From: Nitratireductor soli
GTDB taxonomy: Bacteria > Pseudomonadota > Alphaproteobacteria > Rhizobiales > Rhizobiaceae
Direction of reading: 5' to 3'
DNA length: 64,000 nt
Assembly (NCBI RefSeq): GCF_001050155.1
Contig: NZ_LFVY01000004.1
Coordinates: 1 to 64,000 of the forward strand
Made by a program: the position numbers and the translations under genes. The notes beneath the pieces were generated by a model. It worked only from the letters and a program-made list of their open reading frames with translations. It was not told the origin of the DNA and made no database searches. This document shows, piece by piece, positions 43,259 to 61,347 of this stretch; position 1 is the first letter of the stretch; every line of letters starts with the position of its first letter.

Positions 43259-44455
43259 TCATCCTTTCAACAGCGACTTCAGGTTCGTGCCCGTGTCGGC
43301 AAGCTGCCCCGCGGAGACGGGCACGGCGCGCTGGATCATCTTCTCGGCGATGGAGATCTGCTTCGCCACCGCGTTGCCCGGCCCGGCACCGCTGGCCGAC
43401 AGGAGCGCGCCGTCATCGCCCAGCTGGAACAGGATCAGCGCGCCGCCGGCCAGGTCGCGGCGAATGAATGGTCGCGCCGGGTCCGGCAGCCCGGCCACCT
43501 GCAGGCCGAGATCGTACTGGTCGGACCAGAACCAGGGCGTGCGTGAAAAGGCTTCGTCGGCGCCCAGCATGGCGCGCGCCGCATGCGTTCCCTGGTCCTG
43601 CGCGCAGCGCCAGCTTTCCAGCCGCACGCGACCGCCGCGATAGGGAAAGTTGCAGCAGTCGCCGGCGGCGAAGATGCTGGCATCGGCGGTCTGCAGCCTG
43701 TGATCGACGAGAATGCCGTCGCCGACGGCGAGACCGGCCTGTTCCGCCAGTTGCGTGTCGGGCGCCGCACCGACGCCGGCAACCACCAGATCCGCCTCGA
43801 CATGCCGGCCATCGGCAAGCACGACACCCTCTTCGCCGACGCTCGCCACCGTCGCGGACAGAAGCAGCGCGACACCTTCGGCGCGGTGGCGCGCCTCGAA
43901 CATGGCGGCGAGGGCGGCCGGTACGATCCGCGCCATCAGCCGGTCCGCAGCCTCGATCACGGTTACGTCGACATGGCGCTCGCGTGCCGTCGCGGCAAGC
44001 TCCAGGCCGATGAAACCGCCACCGACGACCGCAAGCCGGGCGCCGGGCCTGAACGCGGCCAGAATGGCTTCGGCATCGTCCAGGCTGCGCAGGGTGCGGG
44101 CGGCTTCCATGCCCGGAAACCGGCGTGCCTGGGCGCCTGTGGCGATGAGAAGCTTGTCGTAGGCATGCGTTGTCCCGTCCGAAAGGGCCACCTGCCTGCG
44201 GTTTGCCTCGATGCGCTCGACGCGTGTCGCGCGCCTGAGGGTGATGCCGGCCTCGTCATAGCGGCTCTCGCCGGCAATGATCTTCTGTGCCCCCGCGGCT
44301 GCACCCTTGGACAAGGGCGGGCGTTCATAGGGCAGGTGCGGTTCGGCGCCGATCAGCGTCACCGGTCCGCCATACCCCTCCTCGCGCAACGCGAAGGCGG
44401 CGCGCACCCCGCACTCGCCGGCGCCGATGATGATCATGCCGCTCGCGCCGCTCAT
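43259..44455 (-). CDS. mocF: FAD-dependent ferredoxin reductase (MocF-like)
   Basis: A 398-residue NAD(P)H:ferredoxin reductase of the rubredoxin/putidaredoxin reductase family. Motifs: FAD site IIIGAGECGVRAA, NAD(P)H site AVVGGGFIGLELAAT, and the second FAD segment ASIFAAGDCCNFP; a C-terminal dimerisation domain follows (VRLESWRCAQDQGTHAAR). It ends the leftward mocD-mocE-mocF cluster and should pass electrons from NAD(P)H to the Rieske ferredoxin 4 nt upstream. In rhizopine catabolism MocF supports the demethylation step carried out by MocD and MocE. Confidence 0.85.
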   Translation of the reverse strand: MSGASGMIIIGAGECGVRAAFALREEGYGGPVTLIGAEPHLPYERPPLSKGAAAGAQKIIAGESRYDEAGITLRRATRVERIEANRRQVALSDGTTHAYDKLLIATGAQARRFPGMEAARTLRSLDDAEAILAAFRPGARLAVVGGGFIGLELAATARERHVDVTVIEAADRLMARIVPAALAAMFEARHRAEGVALLLSATVASVGEEGVVLADGRHVEADLVVAGVGAAPDTQLAEQAGLAVGDGILVDHRLQTADASIFAAGDCCNFPYRGGRVRLESWRCAQDQGTHAARAMLGADEAFSRTPWFWSDQYDLGLQVAGLPDPARPFIRRDLAGGALILFQLGDDGALLSASGAGPGNAVAKQISIAEKMIQRAVPVSAGQLADTGTNLKSLLKG

Positions 44456-44459
44456 GGCG

Positions 44460-44774
44460 TCAGGCGATGTCGATCAGCACGCGGTCGCTCTTGACCTGCA
44501 CCGGGTAGGTTTTCAGTTTGACGCAGGCCGGCGCGCCACGCGCTTCGCCGCTGCGGTAGTCAAAGCGTCCGTTGTGCTTTGGGCATTCGATGATGTGGTC
44601 CATCACCAGCCCGTCGGCCAGGTGCACATGTTCATGCGTGCATAGGCCGTCGGTGGCGTAGAAGGCGTTTTCGTGACTGCGATAGATGGCGAAGGTCCGG
44701 CCTTCGTGGTCGAAGCGGATCAGGTCTTCCTCCTCCACGTCGTCCACTGCGCATGCGTCGATCCATTCGGACAT
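44460..44774 (-). CDS. mocE: Rieske-type 2Fe-2S ferredoxin (MocE family)
   Basis: A 104-residue soluble Rieske ferredoxin. Cluster ligands are Cys45 and His47 in CTHEH and Cys64 and His67 in CPKHNGRFDY. RBS GAGACGATC-like sequence precedes the ATG at 44774. It lies between the desaturase-like oxygenase and the reductase, so it is the electron carrier of a three-part oxygenase. MocE is required, with MocD and MocF, for use of 3-O-methyl-scyllo-inosamine in Rhizobium (established for the named system; assigned here by motif and gene order). Confidence 0.88.
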   Translation of the reverse strand: MSEWIDACAVDDVEEEDLIRFDHEGRTFAIYRSHENAFYATDGLCTHEHVHLADGLVMDHIIECPKHNGRFDYRSGEARGAPACVKLKTYPVQVKSDRVLIDIA

Positions 44775-44797
44775 GATCGTCTCCTCGGTTTCTGCGT

Positions 44798-45919
44798 CTA
44801 TTCGGCGGTTGCAGGCGGGTTCGCCGGCGTGGCGTGGAACTCGGCCCGGTAGGGCCTGGCCGTCGGTGGCAGCGCGCGCTTGATGAAGTAGTCCTCGTGG
44901 CGGAGCTGGCGCAGGAAGGCGGGCAGCATCTCGCGATAGCCGTCGAGGATCGACGGGTTGGGGGCCGGCAGGTCATGCCCGATCAGCGCATGCAGCCTGG
45001 GCAGCGCGTGATAGGGCACCATCGGGAACATGTGGTGCTCGACGTGGTAGTTCATGTTCCAGTAGATGAAGCGGCTGACCGGGTTCATCAGGACGGTGCG
45101 GCTGTTCAGCCGGTGGTCGGTGACATCTTCGGCCAGTCCTCCATGCTGCAGCAGGCCTGTCATGACGTGGTGCCAGGCGCCGTAGAGACGCGGGCCGCCG
45201 ATCAGCAGCAGGGGCAGGATCGAACCGGTGGCAATGGCCGTCGCGCCCGTCGCGGCATAGATCGCCACCCAGATGCGGGCGATGCGGATCACTTTCGGCT
45301 GCTCCTGCGGGGGGATGAAATCCCGTTCCGCCGCGCTCAGCCGCCCGCCGGCGTTGCGCGCCATGTCGATCACCGCATGCCACACATCGACGATGCCGAA
45401 GACATTCAGGACGAGGCGGGCCAGATCCGGCGGGCGCATCACGGAAATCTCCGGATCGCGGCCGACGATGATCGTGTCCGTGTGGTGGCGCGCGTGGCTC
45501 CAGCGCCAGGTCACCGGGTTGCGCATGATCATGAAGGAGGCGATCTGATAGACCGCGTCGTTCATCCAGCGTGTCTTGAAGGCGGTGCCATGGCCGCATT
45601 CGTGCCAGCGGGAATCGGTCGCCGAGCCGTAGAGCACGCCATAGGCGAGAAACAGCGGGATCGCCCAGGCCGAAGGCCACAGCAGAACCGCGCCGGTGGC
45701 GAAAACCGCCATGGCGCCGAGCCAGACGGCCGTATCGCGGATCGCGGCGCCGTCGCTGCGCTGCATAAGCGCCTTCATCTCCTTGCGCGGCACGTCGGTG
45801 TGGTACCACTCGGCCGAGGCAAGCCCGGTCTCGACAGCATGTCGGCCGGCGGTGCCGGTCAGCTCGTAATCGCGTTTGCGCGCGGCGCGCGCCGGTTCGG
45901 AAAAGTCCAGTACGGTCAT
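44798..45919 (-). CDS. mocD: Membrane di-iron oxygenase of the fatty acid desaturase family (MocD-like)
   Basis: A 373-residue membrane protein with the three histidine boxes of the desaturase/hydroxylase superfamily: HECGH (106-110), HARHH (142-146) and HVEHH (292-296), around four hydrophobic segments. With a dedicated Rieske ferredoxin and reductase it matches MocD rather than a lipid desaturase; the inferred reaction is oxidative O-demethylation of rhizopine to scyllo-inosamine. It is the first gene of the leftward cluster and diverges from a LacI regulator across 126 bp. Confidence 0.85.
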   Translation of the reverse strand: MTVLDFSEPARAARKRDYELTGTAGRHAVETGLASAEWYHTDVPRKEMKALMQRSDGAAIRDTAVWLGAMAVFATGAVLLWPSAWAIPLFLAYGVLYGSATDSRWHECGHGTAFKTRWMNDAVYQIASFMIMRNPVTWRWSHARHHTDTIIVGRDPEISVMRPPDLARLVLNVFGIVDVWHAVIDMARNAGGRLSAAERDFIPPQEQPKVIRIARIWVAIYAATGATAIATGSILPLLLIGGPRLYGAWHHVMTGLLQHGGLAEDVTDHRLNSRTVLMNPVSRFIYWNMNYHVEHHMFPMVPYHALPRLHALIGHDLPAPNPSILDGYREMLPAFLRQLRHEDYFIKRALPPTARPYRAEFHATPANPPATAE

Positions 45920-45984
45920 GATCCTTGCTCCTCTCCCGGAGGCTAGGGCAACGCCGCGGGGAATCTCAAGAAGGATGAGGTTTT

Positions 45985-46006
45985 TTCTATCATTCTACAT
46001 CATTTC
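45985..46006 (+). promoter_or_regulatory. Candidate LacI half-sites between mocD and the LacI gene
   Basis: TTCTATCAT at 45985-45993 is identical to the left half of the 47128-47153 palindrome; CATCATTTC follows at 45998-46006. The symmetry is imperfect, so this is a weak call, but the position between divergent genes fits autoregulation and control of mocDEF. Confidence 0.4.
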
Positions 46007-46045
46007 GTGCTCTGCTGAATGAGGGAAAACACGCGGAGATTGATC

Positions 46046-47095
46046 ATGGCCAGGCGCCCGACCATTGCAGATCTTGCCGAAAGGGCCGGCGTCAGCGTTG
46101 CCACGGTCGACCGGGTCCTGAACGACAGGCTCCGGGTGCGCGAGGAGACCGCGCGCCGCGTCTACGAGGCGGCGGCCGCGATCGGCTATCATGCCGCCGC
46201 GTTGATTCATCAACGCATCACGGCCGACCTGCCGCGCATGGATTTCGGCTTTCTCCTGCACAAGGAGGGCCAGCCCTTCTACCAGGCTTTCGCCCGTGCG
46301 CTGGAGGCGGCTGTCGCCGCGCGGCACGACATTCGCGGCCGCGCCCATGTCGCCTTCGTGAGAAACCAGGCGCCCGGCGAGATGACCGAGGCGCTTCGCT
46401 CCCTGGGCGCGCGCACGCAGGTGCTTGCCGCCACCAGCCTCGACCACCATGCGGTGACGCGGACGGTCGAGGCCCTGAAGGGCGAGGGCAAGCTGGTCTT
46501 CTCCCTGCTTTCGGATTTCGCCCAGGGAGTGCGCGAGAGCTATATCGGCCTCAACAACAAGAAGGTCGGGCGTACCGCGGCCTGGATGATCGCCCGCACG
46601 GCGCGCCGCCCGGGCAAGGTGGCGATCTTCGTCGGCAGCCATCGCTGGCACGGGCACGAGCTGCGCGAGACCGGGTTTCGCAGCTTCTTCCGCGAGCATG
46701 CGCCGCAGTTCGAGATCCTCGAGACGCTGGTCAATCTGGAAACGCGCCAGGTGACCTACGAGGCGACACTCAACCTCCTCGACCGGTACCCCGACATTGC
46801 CGGCTTCTATGTCGCCGGCGGCGGCATGGAGGGCGCGATCGGCGCCCTGCGCGAGGCGCTGGAGGAAGGGCGCTTCCAGACGGGCAACGGTCCGTCCGTG
46901 ATCGTCAACGAGCTGACGCCCGATTCGACCGCCGCCCTGCAGGACCAGGTGGTGACGGCAGTCATCGCCACGCCCTTGCACGAACTGGCGCAGGCGCTGG
47001 TGGAACTGATGGTCGGCGCGGTGCGGACCGGTCCGGCCGAGATGCCGGGCCAACTGTTCCTGCCGCTCGGCCTGCATGTGCCGGAGAGCTTGTGA
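46046..47095 (+). CDS. LacI-family transcriptional regulator
   Basis: A 349-residue repressor. Helix-turn-helix at residues 4-30 (TIADLAERAGVSVATVDRVLND), hinge around residue 50, then a periplasmic-binding-protein type effector domain (MDFGFLLHKEGQPFYQAF, GKVAIFVGSHRWHG). An in-frame ATG exists at 46019, but the one at 46046 has a CGGAG site and gives the standard LacI N-terminus. It sits between mocDEF and the moc transporter genes, and a strong palindrome lies just after its stop, so it probably controls both sides in response to rhizopine or an inositol. Confidence 0.9.
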   Translation: MARRPTIADLAERAGVSVATVDRVLNDRLRVREETARRVYEAAAAIGYHAAALIHQRITADLPRMDFGFLLHKEGQPFYQAFARALEAAVAARHDIRGRAHVAFVRNQAPGEMTEALRSLGARTQVLAATSLDHHAVTRTVEALKGEGKLVFSLLSDFAQGVRESYIGLNNKKVGRTAAWMIARTARRPGKVAIFVGSHRWHGHELRETGFRSFFREHAPQFEILETLVNLETRQVTYEATLNLLDRYPDIAGFYVAGGGMEGAIGALREALEEGRFQTGNGPSVIVNELTPDSTAALQDQVVTAVIATPLHELAQALVELMVGAVRTGPAEMPGQLFLPLGLHVPESL

Positions 47096-47127
47096 TCCTG
47101 TGATGGAATGATGGCCGCTGCTCGATA

Positions 47128-47153
47128 GGATTCTATCATAAATGATGGAATCC
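47128..47153 (+). promoter_or_regulatory. LacI-type operator upstream of the MocC-like gene
   Basis: A near-perfect inverted repeat: GGATTCTATCAT (47128-47139), two spacer A residues, then ATGATGGAATCC (47142-47153); 11 of 12 pairs match. A further partial copy, TGATGGAATGATGG, lies at 47101-47114. The even-spaced long palindrome is typical of LacI-family operators. Confidence 0.62.
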
Positions 47154-47243
47154 TGAGCGGGAACGCGTTGACCACTGCATCTGCCGGCCGCATCCTTGGC
47201 GACGCGGTCCCGCTGGGGTCGCGCAAGCTTCCAGGAGGACATG

Positions 47244-48077
47244 ATGCCGGCGACGACGCCTTCCTTCGCGCTCAACCATATGAGCATGCCGCACCGCACG
47301 ATTTCCGATTTCTTTGCCCTTGCCGCGGCGCTCGGCATGCGCGGTGTCGAGATCCGCAACGATCTCGCCGGCAACGCCATCCTTGACGGCACGCCGCCGG
47401 CTGCCGTGCGGGCGGCGGCGCAAGCGCACGGTCTGCGCATCCTGTCGATCAACGCGCTGCAGCGCTTCAACGACTGGACGCCGGCGCGCGGCGAGGAGGC
47501 GCGGGCGCTGCTCTCCTATGCGCGTGCCTGCGGCGCCGAAGCCCTGGTGCTGGTGCCGGTCAATGATGGGTCGGGGCGCGCCAATGGCGAGCGGCAGGCC
47601 AATCTGCGCATTGCGCTGAAGGCGCTCAGGCCGATGCTGGAAGAGGCTGGCATTGTCGGCCTGGTCGAGCCGCTCGGCTTTGAGGAATGCTCGCTGCGGC
47701 GCAAGTCCGAGGCGGTCGAGGCGATTGTCTCGCTCGGCGCGGAAGACGGTTTCCGGCTGGTGCACGACACCTTCCATCATTGCCTGGCGGGCGAGGAGAC
47801 GCTGTTCGTTGCCCATACGGGCCTGGTCCACATCTCCGGCGTCGATGATGGCGCGGTCGCCCTGCGCGACATGCGCGATGGGCACCGCGTGCTGATCGAT
47901 GAGCACGACCGGCTGGGCAATGTGGCGCAGATCGCCGCGCTGCTGGACGGTGGCTATGGCGGGGCTTTCTCTTTCGAGCCCTTTTCGCCGGGCGTGCACC
48001 GCGCGGCCGATCTGCGCGGCGCCCTGCAGGCGAGCATGGCACACATCCATGACGGCATCCGCCGGGTGCCCGCCTGA
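47244..48077 (+). CDS. Sugar phosphate isomerase/epimerase-type TIM barrel protein (MocC/IolE-related)
   Basis: A 277-residue xylose-isomerase-like TIM barrel. It contains MRGVEIRNDLAGN, GLRILSINALQRFNDW, IVGLVEPLGFEECSLRRKSE with the first metal Glu, and DGFRLVHDTFHHCLAG with Asp and His ligands. Two adjacent ATG codons exist at 47241 and 47244; AGGAGG is 2 nt from the first and 5 nt from the second, so I chose 47244. MocC of rhizopine operons belongs to this family, and IolE is a distant relative; a keto-inosose or inosamine isomerisation is likely but unproven. Confidence 0.8.
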   Translation: MPATTPSFALNHMSMPHRTISDFFALAAALGMRGVEIRNDLAGNAILDGTPPAAVRAAAQAHGLRILSINALQRFNDWTPARGEEARALLSYARACGAEALVLVPVNDGSGRANGERQANLRIALKALRPMLEEAGIVGLVEPLGFEECSLRRKSEAVEAIVSLGAEDGFRLVHDTFHHCLAGEETLFVAHTGLVHISGVDDGAVALRDMRDGHRVLIDEHDRLGNVAQIAALLDGGYGGAFSFEPFSPGVHRAADLRGALQASMAHIHDGIRRVPA

Positions 48078-48307
48078 GGCGAGGGCAAGAATGGAATTTC
48101 GCCTTGACGAAACGGAGGAAAATAGAATAAATATTACATATTGGGCGATCAACGGTTCCGACATTCCATTTCATAATCCTGTCGGGCGGCTGAAAAGGCG
48201 AGGATTTCACCCGTTAATACGCTGAAAAAGCTCATGAATTCCCGTCAATAGGGATTCCGGTCAAAGCGGGGTGCCGCCGGACACCCGCCATGTGGAGGAG
48301 CATTCAG

Positions 48308-49252
48308 ATGAAAAAGCTAATGATGGGCGTCGCCCTTTCGGCGCTGATGACCGGTTCGGCCATGGCTGAAAAGGTCGGGGTCTCGATGGCTCTGTTCGAC
48401 GATAATTTCCTCACCGTTCTGCGCAACGGCATGATCGACTATGCCGGGACGCTCGAGGGCGTCGAACTGCAGGTCGAGGACGCGCAGAACGACGTCGGCA
48501 AGCAGCTCAACCAGATCCAGAACTTCATCGCCTCGGGCGTCGACGCGGTGATCGTCAACCCGGTCGACACCGATGCGACGGTGGCAATGACCAAGGCGGC
48601 GGCCGACGCCGGCGTGCCGCTGGTGTTCGTCAACCGCGAGCCGGTGAATGTCGATGACCTGCCGGACAACCAGGCCTTCGTCGCTTCCGACGAGCGCGAA
48701 TCCGGCACGCTGGAAACGCAGGAGATCTGCCGCCTTCTCAAGGAGAAGGGCAAGGGCGACGGCGCCAAGATCATCGTCATGATGGGCGAATTGTCGAACC
48801 AGGCGGCCCGCCAGCGCACCCAGGACGTGCATGACGTGATCGCCACCGAGGCGTGCTCCTTCATGGAGATCGTCGAGGAGCAGACAGCCAACTGGCAGCG
48901 CACCGAGGCCACCGACCTGATGACCAACTGGCTGTCGGCCGGTCTGGAATTCGACGCGCTCGTCTCCAACAATGACGAAATGGCCATCGGCGCCATCCAG
49001 GCGATGAAGGCGGCCAACGTCTCGATGGAGGACGTGCTCGTGGGCGGCATCGACGCGACGCAGGATGCGCTGGCCGCCATGGCGGCCGGCGATCTGGACG
49101 TGACCGTGTTCCAGGACGCGGCCGGCCAGGGCAAGGGCGCGCTCGATGCCGCCCTGAAACTCGCCAAGGGTGAAGACGTCGACCAGAAGGTGTATATTCC
49201 CTTCCAGCTCGTGACGCCTGCGAACCTCGCGGATTTCACGACCAAGAACTGA
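48308..49252 (+). CDS. Periplasmic sugar/rhizopine-binding protein (MocB-like)
   Basis: A 314-residue periplasmic-binding protein, type 1 fold. Signal peptide KKLMMGVALSALMTGSAMA; then VGVSMALFDDNFLTVLRNGM, VDAVIVNPVDTDATVAMTKAA and VFVNREPVN, close to the inositol/rhizopine-binding branch. The ATG at 48308 follows GGAGGAG; an upstream GTG-like start would lack it. The transporter genes follow, with a strong hairpin in between. The 230-bp upstream spacer contains an AT-rich stretch with a TTGACG and an IolR-like half-site. Confidence 0.88.
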   Translation: MKKLMMGVALSALMTGSAMAEKVGVSMALFDDNFLTVLRNGMIDYAGTLEGVELQVEDAQNDVGKQLNQIQNFIASGVDAVIVNPVDTDATVAMTKAAADAGVPLVFVNREPVNVDDLPDNQAFVASDERESGTLETQEICRLLKEKGKGDGAKIIVMMGELSNQAARQRTQDVHDVIATEACSFMEIVEEQTANWQRTEATDLMTNWLSAGLEFDALVSNNDEMAIGAIQAMKAANVSMEDVLVGGIDATQDALAAMAAGDLDVTVFQDAAGQGKGALDAALKLAKGEDVDQKVYIPFQLVTPANLADFTTKN

Positions 49253-49267
49253 TCGTGCGGACCTGAC

Positions 49268-49290: not shown

Positions 49291-49331
49291 GGGCCGCTGG
49301 CGATCCCGGACTCCTGATGGCGGGAAGAACG

Positions 49332-50360
49332 ATGGCAAACCAGGCGCAAGCAGTCTCAGTCAGCCCCGTCGAGACGCCGCAGAAACGGCCGCGCTCGCAC
49401 GAGCTCAACGCCCTGTTCGGGCTGATCGGCATTGCGCTGATCTTCGAGTTATTAGGCTGGCTGTTCCAGGGGCAGAGCTTCCTGTTCAATCCGCAACGCC
49501 TGTCGATCATGATCCTGCAGGTTTCGGTGATCGGCATCATCGCCATCGGGGTCACCCAGGTGATCATTACCGGCGGCATCGATTTGTCCTCCGGCTCCAT
49601 CGTCGGGGCGACTGCCATGATCGCCATGAGTTTCGCGCAGGTGGGCACCTATCCCCGCGCCGTCTATCCGGCGCTGACGGACCTGCCGGTCGTCATTCCC
49701 ATCCTCATCGGCCTCGCCTGCGGCCTTGCCGCCGGCTTGATCAACGGTCTCCTGATCGCCTTCACCAAGATCCCGCCCTTCATCGCCACGCTCGGCATGA
49801 TGGTGACGGCGCGCGGCGTCGCCAAATGGTACACGAAGGGCCAGCCGGTCTCGTTCCCAACCGATGGTTTTGCCTCGCTCGGCCAGGGCATGACGCCGGT
49901 GTTCATCTTTCTCGCCATAGCGCTCCTGTTCCATGTGGCGTTGAAATACACCGTCTACGGCAAGCACACCTATGCGATCGGCTCCAACGTGCAGGCCTCG
50001 CGCATGTCGGGCATCAATGTCGAGCGGCATCTGGTGCTGGTTTATGCGATCGCCGGCCTGCTGGCCGGCCTGGCGGGCATGGTGGTGGCGGCGCGCGGCC
50101 TGACCGCCCAGGCCGGCATGGGCGTCATGTATGAGCTCGACGCCATCGCCATGGCCGTGATCGGCGGTGTGTCGCTGTCGGGCGGGCGCGGTTCGATCGT
50201 CGGCACCCTGATCGGCGCCATCATCTTCGGCGTCATCATCTCGGGCTTCACCTTCCTGAGGCTCGACGCCTATTACCAGGAAATGATCAAGGGCGTGATC
50301 ATCGTCGCCGCCGTCGTGGCCGATGTATACCGCCAGAAAATGCGGCCGCGCGCGCGCTAG
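49332..50360 (+). CDS. ABC transporter permease (RbsC/IatP type) of the moc importer
   Basis: A 342-residue inner-membrane protein with about eight to ten segments. Family stretches: IIAIGVTQVIITGGIDLSSGSIVG, IPPFIATLGMMVTARGVAKWY and IAMAVIGGVSLSGGRGSIVGTLIGA. The frame starts at 49317, but ATG at 49332 has GGGAAGA nearby; either is possible. It lies between the binding protein and ATPase genes of a CUT2-like importer for inositol or rhizopine. Confidence 0.9.
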   Translation: MANQAQAVSVSPVETPQKRPRSHELNALFGLIGIALIFELLGWLFQGQSFLFNPQRLSIMILQVSVIGIIAIGVTQVIITGGIDLSSGSIVGATAMIAMSFAQVGTYPRAVYPALTDLPVVIPILIGLACGLAAGLINGLLIAFTKIPPFIATLGMMVTARGVAKWYTKGQPVSFPTDGFASLGQGMTPVFIFLAIALLFHVALKYTVYGKHTYAIGSNVQASRMSGINVERHLVLVYAIAGLLAGLAGMVVAARGLTAQAGMGVMYELDAIAMAVIGGVSLSGGRGSIVGTLIGAIIFGVIISGFTFLRLDAYYQEMIKGVIIVAAVVADVYRQKMRPRAR

Positions 50361-50378: not shown

Positions 50379-51164
50379 ATGGCAGGCGAAGAGCGCAAGG
50401 TGATCCTCAAGACCGAGGGCCTGACCAAACACTATGGCGGCGTGCATGCGCTGGAGGACGCCGATTTCGAACTGCTCGAGGGCGAGCATGTGGCGATCGT
50501 CGGCGACAACGGCGCCGGCAAGTCGACCTTCGTGCGACAGATCACCGGGGTTGAGAAACCGACAGCCGGCAAGATTCTGTTTGAGGGCCGTGAAGTGGAA
50601 TTCCACAATCCGGTCGACGCACGGGAGGTGGGCATCGAGGCGGTGTTCCAGAACCTGGCGCTGGCCGATGATCTCGACGTGCCGTCGAATATCTTCCTCG
50701 GCCGGGAGGAAACCTATTTCAATCTCGGTCCGTTCAGCATCCTCAACGAGCGCAAGATGCTGCAGCGCAGCCGGGAGGCGCTGGAGAAGACCGGGGTGAA
50801 GATCCCCAATCTGCACAATTCCATCGCCAACATGTCGGGCGGCCAACGGCAATGCGTGGCGATCAGCCGTGCGGCGAGCTTCGCCTCCAAGCTGATCCTG
50901 ATGGACGAGCCGACGGCGGCGCTTGGCGTGCAGGAGACGACGCAGGTGGAGAACATCATCCGCGGGCTGAAGGCGCGCGGCATCCCGCTGATCCTGGTCA
51001 GCCACAATCTGCGCCAGGTGTTCAACCTGGTCGACAAGATCTGGGTGTTCCGCCGCGGCCGCATCGCCGGCATGCTGGAGGCGGGCAAGACCGACGGCAA
51101 CGAGGTGGTGTCGCTGATCACCGGCGTGCAGACCGGCGTGCACGAGAACGCCAGCTACATCTGA
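50379..51164 (+). CDS. ABC transporter ATP-binding protein of the moc importer
   Basis: A 261-residue single-domain ATPase, half the size of RbsA. Walker A GDNGAGKST, signature MSGGQRQCVAISRA, Walker B LILMDEPTAAL, switch His in LVSHNLRQV. Single-domain partners are usual for inositol/fructose-type importers of this subfamily. RBS GAGGGAGG precedes the ATG. It is followed by an intrinsic terminator, so the transporter transcript ends here. Confidence 0.92.
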   Translation: MAGEERKVILKTEGLTKHYGGVHALEDADFELLEGEHVAIVGDNGAGKSTFVRQITGVEKPTAGKILFEGREVEFHNPVDAREVGIEAVFQNLALADDLDVPSNIFLGREETYFNLGPFSILNERKMLQRSREALEKTGVKIPNLHNSIANMSGGQRQCVAISRAASFASKLILMDEPTAALGVQETTQVENIIRGLKARGIPLILVSHNLRQVFNLVDKIWVFRRGRIAGMLEAGKTDGNEVVSLITGVQTGVHENASYI

Positions 51165-53263: not shown

Positions 53264-54382
53264 CTACACGGTCACCCGCCGGCCGTCGCGCGCCGAGGCG
53301 GCAATGGCGTGGATGACCTTCTCGAACTCCAGCGCCTCGGCGAAGTCCGGGCCGGCCTTCTCGCCGCCGGCCACGTGGCGCAGGAAGGCGCCGGCTTCCA
53401 GGACCTTCAGATCGTTGAAGCCGAGCTGATGTCCGGGCGCCGGGCAGAAGGCGGCGTAGGGCGGGTGCGCCGGGCCGGTGAGGATGGTCTTGAAGCCCTG
53501 CTCGCCGGCTGGCCCCTCGTTGCGGTAGAGCTGCAGCTCGTTCATGCGCTCCTGCTCGAAGGCGATCATCCCTGCGGTGCCGTGGACCTCGAAGTCGAGC
53601 CTGTTCTTGCGCCCCCAGGCCGAACGCGAGGTGCATAACACACCCTGCGCGCCGCTCCGGAAGCGCACCAATGCCGAGGCGACGTCCTCGTTCTCAACCC
53701 TGCCGTGCCCCGCGCCCTCCGGTAGCGGCCGCGTTTCGTGGATCGTTTGCATGTCGGCGATCAGGCTATCGACCGGCCCCATCAGGCGATGGGCCATGGA
53801 GACCAGGTGGCAGCCGAGATCGCCGAGTGCGCCGAGCCCTGCCTCCTCGATGCGCGCCCGCCAGGTCCAGGCGAGGTTGGGGTCTGCCTGGTAATCCTCG
53901 TCGACCACACCGCGGAAATGCACCGGCCGGCCGATGGCGCCTTCGGCGACGAGCTTTTGCGCATGGATGAAGGTTGGGTTCTTGACGTAGTTGTAGCCGA
54001 CCATGGTCCTGACGTCGGCGCCGGCCGCCGCCTCGGCCATCGCGCGGGCTTCCTCCAGCGTCAGGCCCATCGGCTTTTCGCAATAGACATGTTTGCCGGC
54101 TTCGATTGCCGCCAGCGCCATTTCGCAATGCATGCGGTTGGGCGTGGTGATCGAGACAATCTCCACCGCCGGATCGGCGACGAGCGCCCGCCAATCGTCG
54201 GTGGCGCGGGCGAAGCCGAACTGACCGGCCATCTGCCGGGCGCGCTCGGCCGGCGTGTCGCAAAGGAGCTCCAGCCGTGCCGTGGGCACATCGCCGAGAA
54301 CCGCCTGCGCGGCGCGGAAGGCCAGCGCATGCGCCTTGCCCATGAAACCGGTGCCGATCAGGCCGATGCCGATGTGACGCAT
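53264..54382 (-). CDS. Gfo/Idh/MocA-family oxidoreductase (MocA-like)
   Basis: A 372-residue dehydrogenase with Rossmann motif LIGTGFMGKAHALAF, catalytic CEKPMG, and GALGDLGCHLVSMAHRLMG. It belongs to the longer branch that includes scyllo-inositol and rhizopine MocA dehydrogenases. The frame is open to 54472, but ATG 54382 follows GGAGGAG and gives the correct N-terminus. It is read leftward, divergent from rpiR, with an IolR-like palindrome between them. Confidence 0.87.
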   Translation of the reverse strand: MRHIGIGLIGTGFMGKAHALAFRAAQAVLGDVPTARLELLCDTPAERARQMAGQFGFARATDDWRALVADPAVEIVSITTPNRMHCEMALAAIEAGKHVYCEKPMGLTLEEARAMAEAAAGADVRTMVGYNYVKNPTFIHAQKLVAEGAIGRPVHFRGVVDEDYQADPNLAWTWRARIEEAGLGALGDLGCHLVSMAHRLMGPVDSLIADMQTIHETRPLPEGAGHGRVENEDVASALVRFRSGAQGVLCTSRSAWGRKNRLDFEVHGTAGMIAFEQERMNELQLYRNEGPAGEQGFKTILTGPAHPPYAAFCPAPGHQLGFNDLKVLEAGAFLRHVAGGEKAGPDFAEALEFEKVIHAIAASARDGRRVTV

Positions 54383-54516: not shown

Positions 54517-54569
54517 AATTGCGTTAGGATCGGGGCGGGTGTTTTGTCAAGCGAAAGAGGGGGCAGTGC

Positions 54570-55388
54570 ATGGCAGGCGTTTCCACTCCGGCATCGATCG
54601 AGGAACTGCTCGACCGGATGCTGGACATTTCCGGCGGTCTACCGAAAAGGCTGAAACAGTGCGCCGACTATGTGGCGGCCAATCCAGACCGCATCGCCGT
54701 GTCGACGGTGGCCGAGATGGCGGAGGGGGCGGGGGTCAAGCCGTCGGCCTTCATGCGCTTCTGCCAGGTGCTCGGCTTTTCCGGTTTCTCGCAGATGCAG
54801 CGCCTGTTCCGCGAGACCTATGCGCAGAACTGGCCGGACTACGCGACGCGGCTGGAAAAGCTGCGCGAGAGCGGCGCGGGCAGCCCCTCGGCACTGCTCG
54901 CCGAATTTATCGAGGCGGGCCGGCTGTCTCTGGAGAACCTGGCCAAGACGATCGATCCGCGCACGCTCGACGCCGCCATCAAGACGCTGTCGGACGCCCA
55001 TATGGTGCACATCATCGGCCTGCGCCGGGCCTTCTCGGTGGCCGCCTATTTCGCTTATGCGTTCGAGAAGATGAACGTGCCGACCATGCTGCACGACACG
55101 GTGGGCGGACTGGACAGCCGCCATGCCATCAGGCCGGGCGACGCGGTGATCGCCATCACCTTTGCCCCCTACACGCGCGAGACGATCGAACTGGCCGAGG
55201 CGGCGCGCGCGGGGGGCGCCGAGGTGGTGGCCATCACCGATGCCATCGCCAGCCCGCTGCGACCGATCACGCCGCTGCTTCTGACCGTTTCCGAGGCCGA
55301 TTTCGGCGATTTCCGCTCACTGTCGGCAACCCTGTCGCTGGCCGTCGCATTGGTCGTGGCGGTGGGGGCCAGGGCGCGGGCGAAATAG
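54570..55388 (+). CDS. iolR: RpiR/MurR-family regulator with SIS domain (IolR)
   Basis: A 272-residue repressor. N-terminal RpiR helix-turn-helix (residues 10-85, with VSTVAEMAEGAGVKPSAFMRFCQVLGFSGF in pieces) and a C-terminal SIS phosphosugar-binding domain (AHMVHIIGLRRAFSVAAYFAYAF, RPGDAVIAITFAPYTRETIELAE). RBS GAGGGGG precedes the ATG. It lies directly upstream of iolC and between two IolR-like palindromes, as expected for the inositol repressor, whose inducer is a phosphorylated pathway intermediate. Confidence 0.9.
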   Translation: MAGVSTPASIEELLDRMLDISGGLPKRLKQCADYVAANPDRIAVSTVAEMAEGAGVKPSAFMRFCQVLGFSGFSQMQRLFRETYAQNWPDYATRLEKLRESGAGSPSALLAEFIEAGRLSLENLAKTIDPRTLDAAIKTLSDAHMVHIIGLRRAFSVAAYFAYAFEKMNVPTMLHDTVGGLDSRHAIRPGDAVIAITFAPYTRETIELAEAARAGGAEVVAITDAIASPLRPITPLLLTVSEADFGDFRSLSATLSLAVALVVAVGARARAK

Positions 55389-55414
55389 AATTTCATGATT
55401 GATTTTATCTTTGA

Positions 55415-55434: not shown

Positions 55435-55518
55435 ATTGCCGGTGAGGCGGACCGATCCCGCCAGTCCGTTGCCCACCGCCCTCCATCGAATCCGGCGGAA
55501 CCCGCGGAGGAGACAGCG

Positions 55519-57435
55519 ATGAAGCCTCTCGACCTGATCACCATCGGCCGCTCCTCGGTCGATCTCTACGGCGCGCAGGTGGGCGGACGGCTCGAGGACA
55601 TGGGTTCCTTCAACAAGTATATCGGCGGCTCGCCGACCAACATCGCCGCCGGCACGGCGAGGCTGGGGCTGAAGTCGGCGCTCATCACCCGTGTCGGCGA
55701 CGAGCCGATGGGCCGTTTCATCCGCGAGGAGCTCGAGCGCGAGGGCGTCGATACGCGCGGCGTCGTCACCGACCCGGAGCGGCTGACGGCGCTGGTCCTG
55801 CTCGGCATCCGCGACCAGGACCGGTTTCCGCTGATCTTCTACCGCGAGAATTGCGCCGACATGGCGCTGGACGAGGGCGACATCGACGCCGATTTCATCG
55901 CCGAGGCGCGCTGCGTCTGCGCGACGGGCACGCATCTGTCGCATCCGCGCACGGAGGCCGCGGTGCTGAAGGCGCTGAGGCTGGCGCGCGGCAACGGCGC
56001 GCTGACGGCGCTCGACATCGACTACCGGCCAAACCTGTGGGGGCTGGCCGGCCACGATGCCGGCGACAGCCGCTTCATCGAATCCGGCCGGGTGACGGCC
56101 AAGCTGCAGGCGAGCCTGGAACTGTTCGACCTGATCGTCGGCACGGAAGAGGAGTTCCACATCGCCGGCGGCTCGACGAACACGATGGAAGCGCTCGCCG
56201 CCGTGCGGGCGCTGAGCGACGCGGTGCTGGTCTGCAAGCGCGGGCCGATGGGCGCTGCGGCCTTTGCCGGCGCCATCCCCGATACGCTCGACGCGGGCGA
56301 GGCGGGCGAGGGGTTCCCGATCGAGGTGTTCAACGTACTCGGCGCCGGCGACGGCTTCATGTCGGGACTGCTGAAGGGCTGGCTTTCCGGAGAGGACTGG
56401 CCGACGGCGCTGAAATACGCCAATGCCTGCGGCGCCTTCGCCGTTTCGCGGCACGGCTGCGCGCCGGCTTACCCCTCCTGGGAGGAACTGCAATACTTCT
56501 TCCGCACCGGCATCCGCACGCCGGCGCTGCGCAAGGATGCGGCGCTGGAGCAGGTGCATTGGGCGACGACAAGGCACGGCGACTGGCCGCAGATGCGCGT
56601 CTTCGCCTTCGATCACCGCATGCAGCTCGAGGCCATGGCCGACGCGGCGGGCGCGCCGCATGAGCGCATCGGCGCCTTCAAGGCGCTGTGCCTGGAGGCG
56701 GCAAAGCAGGTCGCCGACGGGCGCCCCGGCTACGGCATATTGTGCGATGGGCGGCTGGGGCGCGAGGCGCTCTACCGCGCCTCCGGCTCGGGCCTCTGGA
56801 TCGGCCGGCCGGTCGAGTGGCCGGGCTCGCGTCCGCTTGTGCTGGAGCCGGAGATCGGCCCGGATTTCGGCGGGCTTGGCGAATGGCCGCTGGAGAACGT
56901 CGTCAAGGTGCTGTGTTTCTATCACCCGGACGACGACGACGAAACGAAGGCGCGCCAGGAGGACGTGGTCAAGCGGCTGTTTGCCGCCAGCCGGCGCAAC
57001 CGGCTGGAGATGCTGCTCGAGATCATTCCCTCGAAGGTCGCCCCGTGCGACGAGCGGACGGCGGCGCGGGTGATCGAGCGGTTCTACGAAATCGGCGTCT
57101 ATCCGGATTGGTGGAAGCTGGAGCCGATGACGGCGCGCGCCGCCTGGCAGAATGCCTGCGAGGCGATCACGCGCAACGACCCGCATGTGCGCGGCATCGT
57201 GGTGCTGGGGCTCGATGCGCCGGCTAAAGAATTGGCGAAGAGTTTCGCGGTTGCGGCGGGCTTCGATCTGGTCAAGGGTTTCGCCGTCGGACGCACGATC
57301 TTCGCCGAAGCGGCGAGACAGTGGCTGCGCGGAGAGATGGACGACCGGGCGGCGGTCGCCGACATGGCGGAGCGTTATGCACGGCTGTGCGCAGTATGGG
57401 ACCGGGCGCGGGCGCGGGAAGGGAAGGCGGCATGA
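55519..57435 (+). CDS. iolC: 5-dehydro-2-deoxygluconokinase fused to DUF2090 (IolC)
   Basis: A 638-residue bifunctional protein. Residues 1-325 are a PfkB-type kinase (ITIGRSSVDLYGAQVGG, GGSPTNIAAGTARLG, catalytic VLGAGDGFMSGLLKG). Residues 340-638 are a DUF2090 TIM barrel (VFAFDHRMQLEAMADAAG), related to the aldolase that splits the kinase product; this fusion is standard in proteobacterial IolC. RBS GGAGGAG precedes the ATG. The stop overlaps iolD by 4 nt. An IolR-like palindrome lies upstream. Confidence 0.94.
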   Translation: MKPLDLITIGRSSVDLYGAQVGGRLEDMGSFNKYIGGSPTNIAAGTARLGLKSALITRVGDEPMGRFIREELEREGVDTRGVVTDPERLTALVLLGIRDQDRFPLIFYRENCADMALDEGDIDADFIAEARCVCATGTHLSHPRTEAAVLKALRLARGNGALTALDIDYRPNLWGLAGHDAGDSRFIESGRVTAKLQASLELFDLIVGTEEEFHIAGGSTNTMEALAAVRALSDAVLVCKRGPMGAAAFAGAIPDTLDAGEAGEGFPIEVFNVLGAGDGFMSGLLKGWLSGEDWPTALKYANACGAFAVSRHGCAPAYPSWEELQYFFRTGIRTPALRKDAALEQVHWATTRHGDWPQMRVFAFDHRMQLEAMADAAGAPHERIGAFKALCLEAAKQVADGRPGYGILCDGRLGREALYRASGSGLWIGRPVEWPGSRPLVLEPEIGPDFGGLGEWPLENVVKVLCFYHPDDDDETKARQEDVVKRLFAASRRNRLEMLLEIIPSKVAPCDERTAARVIERFYEIGVYPDWWKLEPMTARAAWQNACEAITRNDPHVRGIVVLGLDAPAKELAKSFAVAAGFDLVKGFAVGRTIFAEAARQWLRGEMDDRAAVADMAERYARLCAVWDRARAREGKAA

Positions 57436-59258
57436 AGACCATCAGACTGACGGCAGCACAAGCGGCGATCCGCTACATCGCCGCGCAGAAGAACGAGGAC
57501 GGGCTCCCCTTCATCGCCGGCGTCTGGGCGATCTTCGGCCACGGCAACGTGGCCGGCATCGGCGAGGCGCTTCACGCCGAGCGTGCGACGATCGCGACCT
57601 ATCGCGGCCATAACGAGCAATCGATGGCGCATGCGGCGATCGCCTATGCCAAGCAGCTCGGCCGCCGTCGCGCCATGGCGGTGACCTCGTCCATCGGCCC
57701 CGGCGCGACCAACATGGTGACGGCGGCCGCACTCGCCCATGTCAACCGCCTGCCGGTCCTGTTCATGCCGGGCGACGTGTTTGCGGGCCGCGGGCCGGAC
57801 CCGGTGCTGCAGCAGGTGGAGGACTTTGCCGACGGCACCGTCAGCGCCAATGACTGCTTCCGCCCCGTATCGCGCTATTTCGACCGCATCACGCGGCCCG
57901 AGCAGCTTCTGACCGCTCTGCCGCGCGCCTTCCGCGTGATGACCGACCCGGCCGATTGCGGCCCCGTGACGCTGGCCTTCTGCCAGGATGTACAGGCGCA
58001 GGCCCATGACTGGCCGGAGGACTTCTTTGCCGAGAAAATCTGGCGCCGGCGCCGGCCTCGGCCCGACGAGGCGGAACTGGCGGCGGTGATAGAGGCGATC
58101 CGCGCCGCAAGCCGCCCGGTGATCGTCGCCGGCGGCGGCGTGCATTACGCCGGCGCCTCAGAGGCGCTGAAGGATTTCGTCGAGAAGCACGCGATCCCCG
58201 TCGTCGAGACGCAGGCCGGCAAATCGGCGCTGCCCTGGGACCACGCGCTCAATCTCGGCCCGGTCGGCGTGACCGGCGCGTCGAGTGCCAACGCGGTGTG
58301 CGCCGAGGCAGACCTGGTCTTCGGCGTCGGCACCCGCTTCCAGGATTTCACCACCGGCTCCTGGGCGCTGTTCCGCAACAAGGCGCGCCGGCTCCTGTCG
58401 CTGAATGTGCAGCCCTATGACGGTTACAAGCATGGCGCGCTGCCGCTGGTGGCCGACGCGGTGGTCGGCCTGGAGCTTTTGTCGCATGGCCTTGGCAACT
58501 GGCGGGCCGAGGGCGCCGACGCCAGGCTGAAGGCGGATTGGTTCGAGGCGGCAGGTGCCGTCACCGCGCCACCTTCGGCCGACGACAACGCGCTGCCGAC
58601 CGACATGCAGGTGATCGGCGCCGTACAGCGTGCGGCGCGGGCCGACACGGTGGTGATGTGCGCCGCCGGCACCATGCCGGGCGAATTGCACAAACTGTGG
58701 AAGGCCGGCCGGCCGATGAGCTATCACATGGAATACGGCTATTCCTGCATGGGCTACGAGATCGCCGGCGGGCTGGGCATCAAGATGGCCGAGCCCGACC
58801 GCGACGTGGTGGTGATGGTCGGCGATGGCTCCTACATGATGATGAATTCGGAGCTTGCGACGGCGGCGATGATGGGGGTGAGGATGACGATCGTCGTCAC
58901 CGACAATCGCGGCTATGGCTGCATCAACCGGCTGCAGATGGCGACCGGCGGGGCGGAGTTCAACAATCTGCTCGACCACGCGCAACACGTGAATCCATCG
59001 CGCATCGATTTCGTCGCGCACGCGGCCTCGATGGGCGCCCAGGCATGCAAGGCGGGCTCCATCGCCGAACTGGAACAGGCGCTGGTCGCGGCGCGCCAGG
59101 CCACCGGCCCGTTTGTCGTCGTCATCGACACCGATCCCTATCCGACGACCGGGGCGGGCGGCGCCTGGTGGGACGTCGCCGTGCCGGAAGTGTCGGAGCG
59201 CGCCGAAGTGAAGGCCGCGCGGCGGAAATACGAAGCCGCGTTGAAGGAAAGACACTGA
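57432..59258 (+). CDS. iolD: 3D-(3,5/4)-trihydroxycyclohexane-1,2-dione hydrolase
   Basis: A 608-residue thiamine-diphosphate enzyme that opens the inositol ring. N-terminal AVWAIFGHGNVAGIGEAL-type segment (here beginning FIAGVWAIFGHGNVAG), AYAKQLGRRRAMAVTSSIGPGATNMVTAA, and the ThDP motif GDGSYMMMNSELATAAMMG followed by TDNRGYG. The ATG at 57432 overlaps the iolC stop. iolE starts on the base after its stop. Confidence 0.95.
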   Translation: MKTIRLTAAQAAIRYIAAQKNEDGLPFIAGVWAIFGHGNVAGIGEALHAERATIATYRGHNEQSMAHAAIAYAKQLGRRRAMAVTSSIGPGATNMVTAAALAHVNRLPVLFMPGDVFAGRGPDPVLQQVEDFADGTVSANDCFRPVSRYFDRITRPEQLLTALPRAFRVMTDPADCGPVTLAFCQDVQAQAHDWPEDFFAEKIWRRRRPRPDEAELAAVIEAIRAASRPVIVAGGGVHYAGASEALKDFVEKHAIPVVETQAGKSALPWDHALNLGPVGVTGASSANAVCAEADLVFGVGTRFQDFTTGSWALFRNKARRLLSLNVQPYDGYKHGALPLVADAVVGLELLSHGLGNWRAEGADARLKADWFEAAGAVTAPPSADDNALPTDMQVIGAVQRAARADTVVMCAAGTMPGELHKLWKAGRPMSYHMEYGYSCMGYEIAGGLGIKMAEPDRDVVVMVGDGSYMMMNSELATAAMMGVRMTIVVTDNRGYGCINRLQMATGGAEFNNLLDHAQHVNPSRIDFVAHAASMGAQACKAGSIAELEQALVAARQATGPFVVVIDTDPYPTTGAGGAWWDVAVPEVSERAEVKAARRKYEAALKERH

Positions 59259-60167
59259 ATGATCCGCTACGGCACCAATCCCATCGCCTGGTCGAACGAC
59301 GACGATCGGACCATCGGCGCGCATATCCCGCTCGAACAATGCCTCTCCGAGACGGCCGCTATCGGCTTCGACGGCATCGAGAAGGGGCATAAGATGCCCT
59401 CCGACGGGGCCACGCTGAAGGCCATGCTCGCATCCCACGGCCTCGTCTTCGTCTCGGGCTGGCATTCGCTGAACCTGCTCGTCAACGATGTCGAGACCGA
59501 GAAGCGGGCGATCCAGCCGCATCTCGACATGCTGAAGGCCAATGGCTGTGCGGTCTGCATCGTCTGCGAGACCTCCAATGCGGTGCATGGCGACGACGCC
59601 GTCGCGCTCGCCGATCGGCCGCGCCTGGCGGACGATCGCTGGCCAGAGTTCTGCGCCGGCGTGGAGGCGCTCGCCGAACATTGCGCGGCGCAGGGCATTG
59701 CGCTGGTCTATCATCACCACATGGGAACCATCGTCGAGAACCGCACCGAGATCGGTCGGCTGATGGCCGGCACCGGCCCTGCCACGCGGCTGCTGCTCGA
59801 CACGGGGCATGCCTGGTTCGGCGGCTCGGATCCGGTCGAGCTGGCGCAGGCCTACGGCGAGCGAGTGGGGCATTTCCACGCCAAGAACGTGCGCCCGGCG
59901 ATCCGCAGCGAGGTGGAGCGGGAGCGCCTGTCGTTCCTCGAAGGGGTGCGGCGCGGGGTGTTCACCGTTCCGGGCGATCCCGAAGGCGGCGTCGCATTCG
60001 AGCCCGTGCTCGCGGTGCTGGCCGGCAAGGGCTATGACGGCTGGCTGGTGATCGAGGCCGAGCAGGACCCGACGAAGGCCGATCCGGTCAGGTATCAGTC
60101 CATGGGCCTGAAGACGCTGAAGGCGGCGGCGCGGGCGGCCGGGCTCGACCGGGCCGACGCGGCATGA
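59259..60167 (+). CDS. iolE: Inosose dehydratase
   Basis: A 302-residue TIM-barrel enzyme converting 2-keto-myo-inositol to the trihydroxycyclohexanedione. Opening [19 protein letters not shown], metal-site segments [41 protein letters not shown] and [10 protein letters not shown]. It begins immediately after iolD with no spacer and overlaps the next small gene by 4 nt. Confidence 0.94.
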
Positions 60168-60352
60168 CGTTCCTCGACCCCCGCCACCCGTTCTTCCGGC
60201 CGCTGTGGCGGCGCGTGGCGGTGGTCGCCGCCTGCCTCGGTTGGGGCCTGTTCGAATTCGCCTCCGGCGCGCCGTTCTGGGGCATCCTGTTCACCGCCGC
60301 TGGCGCCTATGCGGCATGGGTTCTGCTGATCGTTTTTGCGCCGGAGGAATAG
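60164..60352 (+). CDS. Small membrane protein of the DUF3329 type
   Basis: A 62-residue protein with two hydrophobic segments (about residues 17-35 and 38-58) and an N-terminal [18 protein letters not shown] motif, as in small DUF3329-like proteins common in alphaproteobacteria. Its ATG overlaps the iolE stop (ATGA). Function unknown; it may simply travel with the iol operon. Confidence 0.78.
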
Positions 60353-60369
60353 GGGTGGAGGCAGGCCCC

Positions 60370-60483
60370 CGCCCCTCATCCGCCTGCCGGCACCTTCTCC
60401 CCGTGAACGGGGAGAAGGAAGATGACCGCAACCTGGATGCCTCCCTCTCCCCGCTTGCGGGGAGAGGGTAAGGGTGAGGGGCA
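60370..60483 (+). repeat. Composite palindromic repeat element between iolE and iolB
   Basis: Two perfect 12-bp hairpins, CCTTCTCCCCGT with ACGGGGAGAAGG (60393-60418) and CCCTCTCCCCGC with GCGGGGAGAGGG (60443-60468), are framed by outer arms GCCCCTCATCC and GGGTGAGGGGC. This resembles the REP/BIME-like elements of rhizobial genomes. It breaks the iol transcript between the DUF3329 gene and iolB and could affect message stability. Confidence 0.75.
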
Positions 60484-60531
60484 GCGCTGGCGCCCGAACC
60501 GACTGAACGGAGACGAGCAAAGGAGCGAGCC

Positions 60532-61347
60532 ATGTCCCGCCTGCTGATCAAACCCGCCGGCACGGCCGGAAAGGTGCATGACATCACGCCGCAATCGGCC
60601 GGATGGAGTTATGTCGGCTTCGGCCTGTACCGGCTGCGCGCCGGCGAGACGGCAACTGAGGAGACCGGCGATCGCGAGGTGATCCTCGTGCTGGTCGAGG
60701 GCAAGGCCGAGATCTCCGGCGCGGGCGAGGATTTCGGCGAGCTGGGCGAGCGCATGAACGTGTTCCAGCGCCTGCCGCCGCACGCGGTCTACATCCCGAA
60801 CGGAATGCACTGGCAGGCAAAGGCCACCACCGGCTGCACGCTAGCCGTCTGTTCCGCACCGGGCAGGGGCGGACACGCCGCGCAGGTGATCGGCCCCATC
60901 GGCATCGGCCTGGAGGAGCGCGGCCAAGGTGCCAACACGCGCTACATCCACAACATCGCCATGGAAGGACGCGACGTGGCCGACAGCCTGCTGGTGACGG
61001 AGGTCTATACGCCGCAGGGCAACTGGTCGTCCTACCCGCCGCATCGGCACGACGAGGACGACTTTCCCGACATGACCTATCTCGAGGAGAGCTATTACCA
61101 TCGGCTCAATCCGGCGCAGGGGTTCGGCTTCCAGCGCGTCTTCACCGAGGACGGCAGCCTCGACGAAACGATGGCCGTGTCGGATCACGACGTGGTGCTG
61201 GTGCCGAAGGGGCACCACCCCTGCGGCGCGCCCTATGGCTATGAGATGTACTACCTCAACGTCATGGCCGGCCCCTTGCGCAAATGGCGCTTCAAGAACC
61301 ATCCCGACCATGACTGGATTTTCCAGCGCGATTCGAAACAGAGATAG
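60532..61347 (+). CDS. iolB: 5-deoxy-glucuronate isomerase
   Basis: A 271-residue cupin-fold enzyme turning 5-deoxyglucuronate into 2-deoxy-5-ketogluconate. Conserved segments: WSYVGFGLYRLRAGET, VLVEGKAEISGAGEDF, WSSYPPHRHDEDDFPDMTYLEES (in pieces) with the metal His residues, and PKGHHPCGAPYGYEMYYLNVMAG. RBS GGAGCGAGCC-like sequence precedes the ATG. It is the last iol gene here; iolA is not in the window. Confidence 0.94.
   Translation: MSRLLIKPAGTAGKVHDITPQSAGWSYVGFGLYRLRAGETATEETGDREVILVLVEGKAEISGAGEDFGELGERMNVFQRLPPHAVYIPNGMHWQAKATTGCTLAVCSAPGRGGHAAQVIGPIGIGLEERGQGANTRYIHNIAMEGRDVADSLLVTEVYTPQGNWSSYPPHRHDEDDFPDMTYLEESYYHRLNPAQGFGFQRVFTEDGSLDETMAVSDHDVVLVPKGHHPCGAPYGYEMYYLNVMAGPLRKWRFKNHPDHDWIFQRDSKQR

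Follow-up and report, generated by a model that had tools for sequence, protein, structure and literature searches.

A gene cluster of 18 kb in Nitratireductor soli (contig NZ_LFVY01000004.1) joins the oxygenase genes mocDEF to a sugar importer and the iol genes of inositol breakdown, and the question is which compound such a cluster would degrade. It lies at 43259-61347 of the stretch analysed here, which comprises 64,000 nucleotides and is called the window throughout; the source genome is a Nitratireductor draft of 58 contigs that is 99.5% complete. An earlier note on this DNA described the cluster as a rhizopine-to-inositol locus, and all genes that it listed were present, with open reading frames and family models in agreement. 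We conclude that the 18 kb probably form a single locus for the breakdown of O-methyl-inositols, with D-pinitol (3-O-methyl-D-chiro-inositol) and ethers related to it, among them ononitol, as the most likely substrates. A methyl-inositol is suggested because the cluster unites the importer, the dehydrogenase IolG and an IolI-like gene, in some loci together with an iol run, and O-demethylation because one-carbon genes (PanB-like, PurU and FolD) stand behind mocDEF in relatives.

Two divergent gene runs flank a gap of 99 bp at 45920-46018. Leftward run mocD, mocE and mocF; rightward run the genes for a LacI regulator, a TIM barrel, a sugar-binding protein (SBP), a permease, an ATPase, a short-chain dehydrogenase/reductase (SDR) and IolG. 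Beyond IolG follow an opposite-strand Gfo/Idh gene, an RpiR regulator gene and iolC(J)-D-E-B. The proposed O-demethylase is MocD (44798-45919, minus strand), a membrane di-iron oxygenase of PF00487 with 76% identity to rhizopine MocD, in which the histidines of three His boxes (HECGH, HARHH and HVEHH) are invariant in 15 aligned rows including that of the window. On the same strand lie a MocE-family Rieske ferredoxin (44460-44774; TIGR02377, 169 bits against a cut-off of 136; 63-69% identity to MocE of five MocR loci) and a MocF-like ferredoxin reductase of the FAD/NAD type (43259-44455; PF07992 and PF14759; 51% identity to the rhizopine MocF of L167, loci being cited by L numbers). These models bear out the description of a desaturase-type oxygenase with three His boxes, a Rieske ferredoxin and a reductase. 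A ferredoxin-oxygenase step carried out by mocDEF is the published model for rhizopine loci (Bahar 1998, as cited in PMC10107442).

We compared 95 MocD loci, 80 of which are the nearest among at least 583 matches and the rest hand-picked; the flanks are short in part, and the duplicates L085 (equal to L067) and L087 (equal to L065) were counted once. Gene presence was scored by tblastn with reference proteins. The nearest named relative returned by the genome scan was Nitratireductor sp. ZSWI3 (MocD identity 87%). MocE was found in 92 and MocF in 86 of the 95 loci, LacI was divergent to MocD in 84, and the SBP was present in 58, the TIM barrel in 55, IolG in 39 and the SDR, near MocD, in 20. 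Such dedicated partners and the fixed position beside LacI argue against a reading of MocD as a lipid or carotenoid desaturase placed here by chance, which membership in PF00487 would allow and which we regard as highly improbable. Models of lipid and carotenoid desaturases gave MocD only 20-27 bits (27 for the best lipid model), and no PDB chain matched the MocD profile at E 0.01. A grouping of MocD with lipid desaturases, which the note had named as fatal to its own reading, was seen neither in these model scores nor in the PDB profile search, neither of which is a tree.

The same tally bears on a second explanation, in which the locus serves plain myo-, scyllo- or chiro-inositol and mocDEF acts on a different methylated sugar, or on a sugar acid, taken up by the same importer. 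Further MocD-MocE-PanB-like copies (MocD about 62-67% identity) stand beside other ATP-binding cassette (ABC) importers in L211, L213, L214 and L082; these MocD copies are perhaps demethylases for other methylated sugars. Their transporters would fit this explanation, as would the P. syringae mocDEF reported beside xylA2 and without mocCABR (PMC5132102). We nevertheless consider it unlikely, given the 39 loci with IolG and the 55 with the IolI-like TIM gene within reach, and the iol runs that also occur at L083 (a seawater Marivivens) and at L084 (a paddy-soil Rhizobium; cut by the sequence end).

Demethylation of an O-methyl-inositol should release a one-carbon unit, and the neighbours of mocDEF in relatives are consistent with this. 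A PanB-like gene stands behind mocDEF in 55 of the 95 loci and PurU in 18; FolD was found at L097, L100, L111, L166 and L219, and in partial form at L081, L140 and L167. PanB uses methylene-tetrahydrofolate, which FolD and PurU together convert to formate. A mocDEF-panB-purU-folD run in M. huakuii pMHb (L219, 1475-6847) likely covers the complete path from the methyl group to formate. Among the congeners, L067 and L068 have the PanB-like and PurU genes and L066 has PurU, and rhizopine operons carry the same PanB-like and PurU genes behind mocDEF. The LacI-TIM-mocDEF-panB set is also present on pRL11 of Rhizobium johnstonii 3841, a strain that served as host of a rhizopine biosensor (PMC6668481).

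The pathway that we infer, with its substrate, the demethylation by this MocD, the direction of control and the ligand, would run as follows. The SBP (48302-49252), the CUT2-type permease (49317-50360; PF02653) and the single-domain ABC ATPase (50379-51164; PF00005), all on the plus strand, would import the methyl-inositol ether. Electrons would pass from NAD(P)H through MocF and the Rieske ferredoxin MocE to MocD, which would hydroxylate the O-methyl carbon, and the resulting hemiacetal would split into free inositol and formaldehyde. Pinitol would thus give D-chiro-inositol, to be oxidised by IolG (inositol 2-dehydrogenase, 52081-53085, plus strand; TIGR04380, 420 against 355), and the IolI-like TIM barrel would isomerise the ketone to scyllo-inosose. 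Together, IolG and IolI form the known D-chiro-inositol route of B. subtilis (PMC3176187). IolE (59259-60167; TIGR04379, 352 against 290), IolD (57429-59258; TIGR04377, 909 against 715), IolB (60532-61347; TIGR04378, 338 against 205) and an IolC kinase fused to an IolJ-like aldolase domain (55519-57435; NF047869, 718 against 600), all on the plus strand, would complete the breakdown of the ring together with IolA. The five iol genes claimed by the note (iolB, C, D, E and G) all scored above curated cut-offs. No iolA/mmsA gene lies within the locus; two copies above the TIGR01722 cut-off are found elsewhere in the genome. An SDR dehydrogenase (51253-52032, plus strand; NF004847, 352 against 240) stands before iolG, and an RpiR-family regulator (54570-55388, plus strand; PF01418 and PF01380) is a candidate IolR. 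Compared with the iol pathway of Bacillus subtilis, Caulobacter and Salmonella, the window has the same IolG, IolC, IolD, IolE, IolB and IolI-like proteins (PMC3176187, PMC10783015), but differs in the fused IolC-J, the CUT2 importer, the O-demethylase front end and the location of iolA elsewhere.

Two assignments in this pathway depart from the earlier note. The TIM barrel (about 47226-48077, start uncertain, plus strand), which had been called MocC-like, is instead a proposed inosose isomerase of the Msi119 type. It gave no blastp match at 1e-10 to the MocC-position gene of rhizopine loci, which proved to be IolE-like, with 44% identity to the IolE of the window (compared with the locus genes only). 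Its profile matched B. subtilis IolI (1i60, E 7e-11) over nearly the full length, behind two uncharacterised entries, 2q02 and 4hgx (E 2e-58), which we take to be the Salmonella protein STM4435/iolI2. Four ligand-like residues (E139, D172, H193 and E242), which we liken to the IolI metal ligands, are invariant in 18 aligned rows. As for the "two MocA/IolG dehydrogenases", IolG stood, but the second, the Gfo/Idh/MocA-family protein at 53264-54382 (minus strand, start set by inspection), was rejected as MocA. It is not an ortholog of the MocA of rhizopine loci, and its nearest entry is the "scyllo-inositol dehydrogenase with L-glucose dehydrogenase activity" 5ya8 (E 5e-127); it would feed scyllo-inositol into the pathway at scyllo-inosose.

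Support for the substrate comes from plant material. Pinitol and ononitol are common in legumes, where methyl-inositols are abundant (PMC8730688). According to PMC5789663, pinitol was the most concentrated compound of Mimosa exudate (145 µM, against 0.73 µM inositol), and R. mesoamericanum exposed to this exudate raised expression of mocDEF 1.5- to 2.1-fold, of a mocB-type ABC importer 4- to 4.7-fold and of idhA 2.4-fold, with the iol genes also up.

Could the locus be a true rhizopine (3-O-methyl-scyllo-inosamine) catabolic locus that is under LacI instead of MocR? The identities to rhizopine-locus genes (MocD, MocE and MocF as above, MocB 69%), the similar shape of rhizopine and methyl-inositols, and the requirement for iol genes in rhizopine use (PMC5789663) are in its favour. 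Searches of the whole genome, however, found no MocR ortholog (best match 30% identity), no MocA ortholog (best match IolG itself, 30%) and, for MosB, nothing beyond partial matches (37%), and nifH was not found above cut-off (nifA was not part of this search). The moc-box AAAGYGGYTCT (motif from PMC10107442) was not found within three mismatches in the LacI-MocD gap; the same scan detected moc-box pairs at 24 bp spacing in L166 and L167. The locus also lacks an amine-removing enzyme: none of its genes encodes an aminotransferase, in agreement with the note. Because O-methyl-inositols carry no amine, they require no deamination step, and because the regulator differs from MocR, an inducer other than rhizopine fits. 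Rhizopines activated the MocR biosensor when it was exposed to a panel of compounds, with myo-inositol, ononitol and pinitol among them (PMC6668481). In a plasmid collection, MocD relatives occurred in 285 records, 256 of them at 60% identity or more, against 24 records with a MocR relative (E 1e-100), of which 14 exceeded 80% (86-100%); the overlap between the two sets of records was not compared. We therefore judge a rhizopine locus improbable: mocDEF, a MocB-like SBP and the linkage to iol genes stand as the note had it, and rhizopine as substrate is not supported.

For the MocB-like importer the evidence points both ways. The SBP is 69% identical to rhizopine MocB, yet six MocB rows form a clade without it (SH-aLRT 100; unrooted); in the tree as drawn with midpoint rooting, these six share the starred set with 17 binding proteins of the LacI type. 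The model NF052284, named "rhizopine SBP", was dropped as a negative test (37 for the window's SBP against 420). This model was not listed for the binding proteins beside MocR in L081 and L167 (limits 1e-20 and 1e-10), and its name looks doubtful.

We compared the MocR loci on plasmids (L081, L165, L166, L167 and L175), in which the order is the IolE-like gene at the MocC position, Gfo, MocA, MocB, MocR, MocD, MocE, MocF, PanB-like and PurU, with MosB-like genes near the MocR locus in four of the five. MocR occurred in one of the 80 genome-scan loci (L140); the remaining four in the set of 95 come from plasmids, and three of these were fetched for having MocR. In trees, the MocD of MocR-linked loci falls among the LacI-linked rows. 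Two origins of rhizopine MocD within the LacI-linked family appeared in free trees and were set aside, as an approximately unbiased test does not reject a single origin (p 0.327). Relative to mocCABRDEF of S. meliloti L5-30 and R. leguminosarum (represented by the related loci L081, L140, L165, L166, L167 and L175, not by L5-30 itself), the window shares MocDEF, a binding protein similar to MocB and the use of the inositol pathway, and its relatives share the PanB-like and PurU genes behind mocDEF. It differs in having LacI and a dyad in place of MocR and moc-boxes, and in having the importer, IolG, the SDR, the IolI-like gene and iolCDEB on site; it has no MocA ortholog and, among the genes of the locus, a MocC-type gene only as IolE.

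The regulator between the divergent runs is a LacI protein (46019-47095, plus strand; PF00356) of the FixV family, as discussed below. It would control both runs and respond to the cyclitol ether or to a compound formed from it. The mocDEF gaps yielded the dyad rule ATGATRG-n3/4-CYATCAT. With at most two mismatches, the dyad was present in 65 of 87 LacI-MocD gaps (15 exact; shuffled mean 0.25) and in 29 of 52 LacI-TIM gaps (9 exact; shuffled mean 0.15). In the window, an operator-like site with the half site AATGATAGAA lies in the LacI-MocD gap (45974-45997, minus strand; matrix score 24.8, the site being in the training set), and a second operator-like dyad, TCGATAGGATTCTATCAT, lies between the LacI and TIM genes (47122-47139; two mismatches to ATGATRG-n4-CYATCAT, strand not assigned). 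A weight matrix built from 35 distinct gap sites, including the window's own, scored four sites at 10 or above across the window, each of them in a gap of the locus: 45974 (the training-set site), 47120, and the weak sites 55392 and 55417 between the RpiR gene and iolC. The looser dyad rule also gave two-mismatch sites outside such gaps, at 37447, 44590 and 50208, so single dyad sites prove little.

Several observations weigh against a methyl-inositol locus. Behind the window's mocDEF neither a PanB-like gene nor PurU is present, and the genome's single PF02548 match and its single PurU above cut-off both lie elsewhere; either this counts against the proposal or household enzymes serve. The PanB-like proteins themselves, at 102-105 bits, remain far short of the 208 bits required by the PanB model. 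Mesorhizobium loci such as L108 and L113 have no TIM gene within the flank, and the MocD family is not limited to inositols, as its members adjoin other ABC types (L082, L211, L213 and L214). In the window's own LacI-MocD gap the full dyad is poor, with five mismatches (three to five in the congeners), and only its left half is good, together with the site between the LacI and TIM genes. The authors of PMC5789663 interpreted the exudate response as one to rhizopine; the exudate was applied whole, mocDEF rose only about 2-fold, and by gene numbers the ABC genes are apart from mocDEF.

The LacI regulator would connect the proposed methyl-inositol locus to symbiosis. In M. loti R7A, the LacI regulator FixV activates nifA2, with an inositol derivative guessed as its signal, and FixV homologs were described divergent to mocD and before TIM-barrel epimerase genes in several rhizobia (PMC3538637). 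Judged by sequence homology, identity of the helix-turn-helix (HTH) stretch and position divergent to mocD and before the TIM gene, the window's LacI is a member of the FixV family. R7A FixV was represented here by LacI genes of other Mesorhizobium that lie about 0.6 to 4 kb from their nifA2. Six of seven wider nifA2 upstreams contain a LacI of the FixV family, at a distance of up to about 0.6 kb in three and of about 3 kb in the other three; LacI near nifA2 shares the stretch GVSVATVDRVLN with the window's LacI, and five of the six form one clade with the LacI of L221.

We then consider the dyad in front of nifA genes. Among 119 Mesorhizobium genomes, 82 match the NifA of L221 at 1e-120, many only through a shorter protein. 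This shorter NifA-like protein (about 371 residues, 76% to NifA residues 247-606) also occurs in genomes without a full-length match. The nifA2-type set consisted of all 42 full-length matches at 65% identity or more, from which L234 was dropped (22 bp of upstream sequence), leaving 41; the nifA1-type control consisted of 20 of about 49 matches of the second type (about 47-54% identity; type assigned by inference). Within 700 bp upstream, the dyad with at most two mismatches was present in 37 of the 41 nifA2-type genes (shuffled mean 0.34), with 4 exact, 9 at one mismatch or fewer and 40 at three or fewer. It was present in none of the 20 nifA1-type upstreams, even at three mismatches, where shuffles give 2.0. 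Real Mesorhizobium sequence off the LacI-MocD gap contains 0.083 sites per 700 bp, or about 3.4 per 41, and no site with one mismatch or fewer in 362 kb. The 41 rows are not independent cases, since they form 14 clusters at 85% identity and sixteen of them make up a single cluster that shares an identical site; the dyad occurs in at least 11 of the 14, a lower bound, as the site of L238 is present though missed in the cluster tally. L257, whose sequence is cut 300 bp into the gene, was counted as a miss within the 41. The first nifA upstream to show the dyad was that of L221 (site 11869-11886); L227 is from the same record, L228 and L229 belong to the same cluster, and 3 of the 37 positive upstreams belong to this discovery case. 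Some changes preserve the dyad, for example CTGAT...ATCAG. The dyad upstream of nifA2 is thus a candidate FixV binding site.

On three symbiotic plasmids (L217, L218 and L223), a FixV-type LacI is flanked by MocD and PanB-like relics, in L217 also by MocF. The MocD/PanB-like relics lie between the LacI gene and a LysR gene (L217 8001-8908, L218 8108-8787 and L223 5888-6795), the LysR being 82% identical to one in L221. A tentative proposal, which may well prove wrong, is that the window's LacI and FixV are the same kind of sensor for O-methyl-inositol, that FixV was taken from a mocDEF locus and binds the dyad before nifA2, and that pinitol or ononitol, brought into the symbiosome by the plant, is the in-nodule signal that turns on nitrogen fixation in Mesorhizobium. 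With the FixV-Msi119 module of M. loti R7A the window has in common a LacI homolog that points away from mocD and precedes a TIM-barrel gene (PMC3538637) and, in other Mesorhizobium, the HTH stretch and the dyad; it differs in being a catabolic locus whose genome has no nifH above cut-off, whereas the Mesorhizobium regulator activates nifA2.

The genes mocDEF and iol, FixV, and the FixV-mocD-epimerase synteny were already published; the shared operator and the methyl-inositol signal are what we infer in the present analysis. The main text of PMC3538637 mentions no palindrome, operator, inverted repeat or pinitol. The literature searched, which covers few subscription journals and is weak evidence of absence, named neither an O-methyl-inositol demethylase nor a FixV operator. 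The locus offers a candidate bacterial methyl-inositol demethylase with its electron chain, its regulator and, in relatives, a likely one-carbon outlet. If this is true, the wrong substrate has been named where LacI-linked mocDEF was read as rhizopine catabolism (PMC5789663, PMC3538637). FixV, for which the 2013 work had left the inducer open, would gain a concrete candidate binding site and a small set of candidate ligands, and it would be tied to the transport of pinitol into Lotus symbiosomes by LjPLT11.

At the mocF end of the locus, the window contains at 39380-42772 a TctA-like permease reading frame (by eye), a LysR regulator and a PxpA-like gene. The PxpA-like gene is convergent with mocF, at the place where the congeners have the PanB-like and PurU genes. 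Just beyond iolB, the opposite strand encodes a monocarboxylate-type transporter of the major facilitator superfamily (61415-62794) and an amidase (62688-63944).

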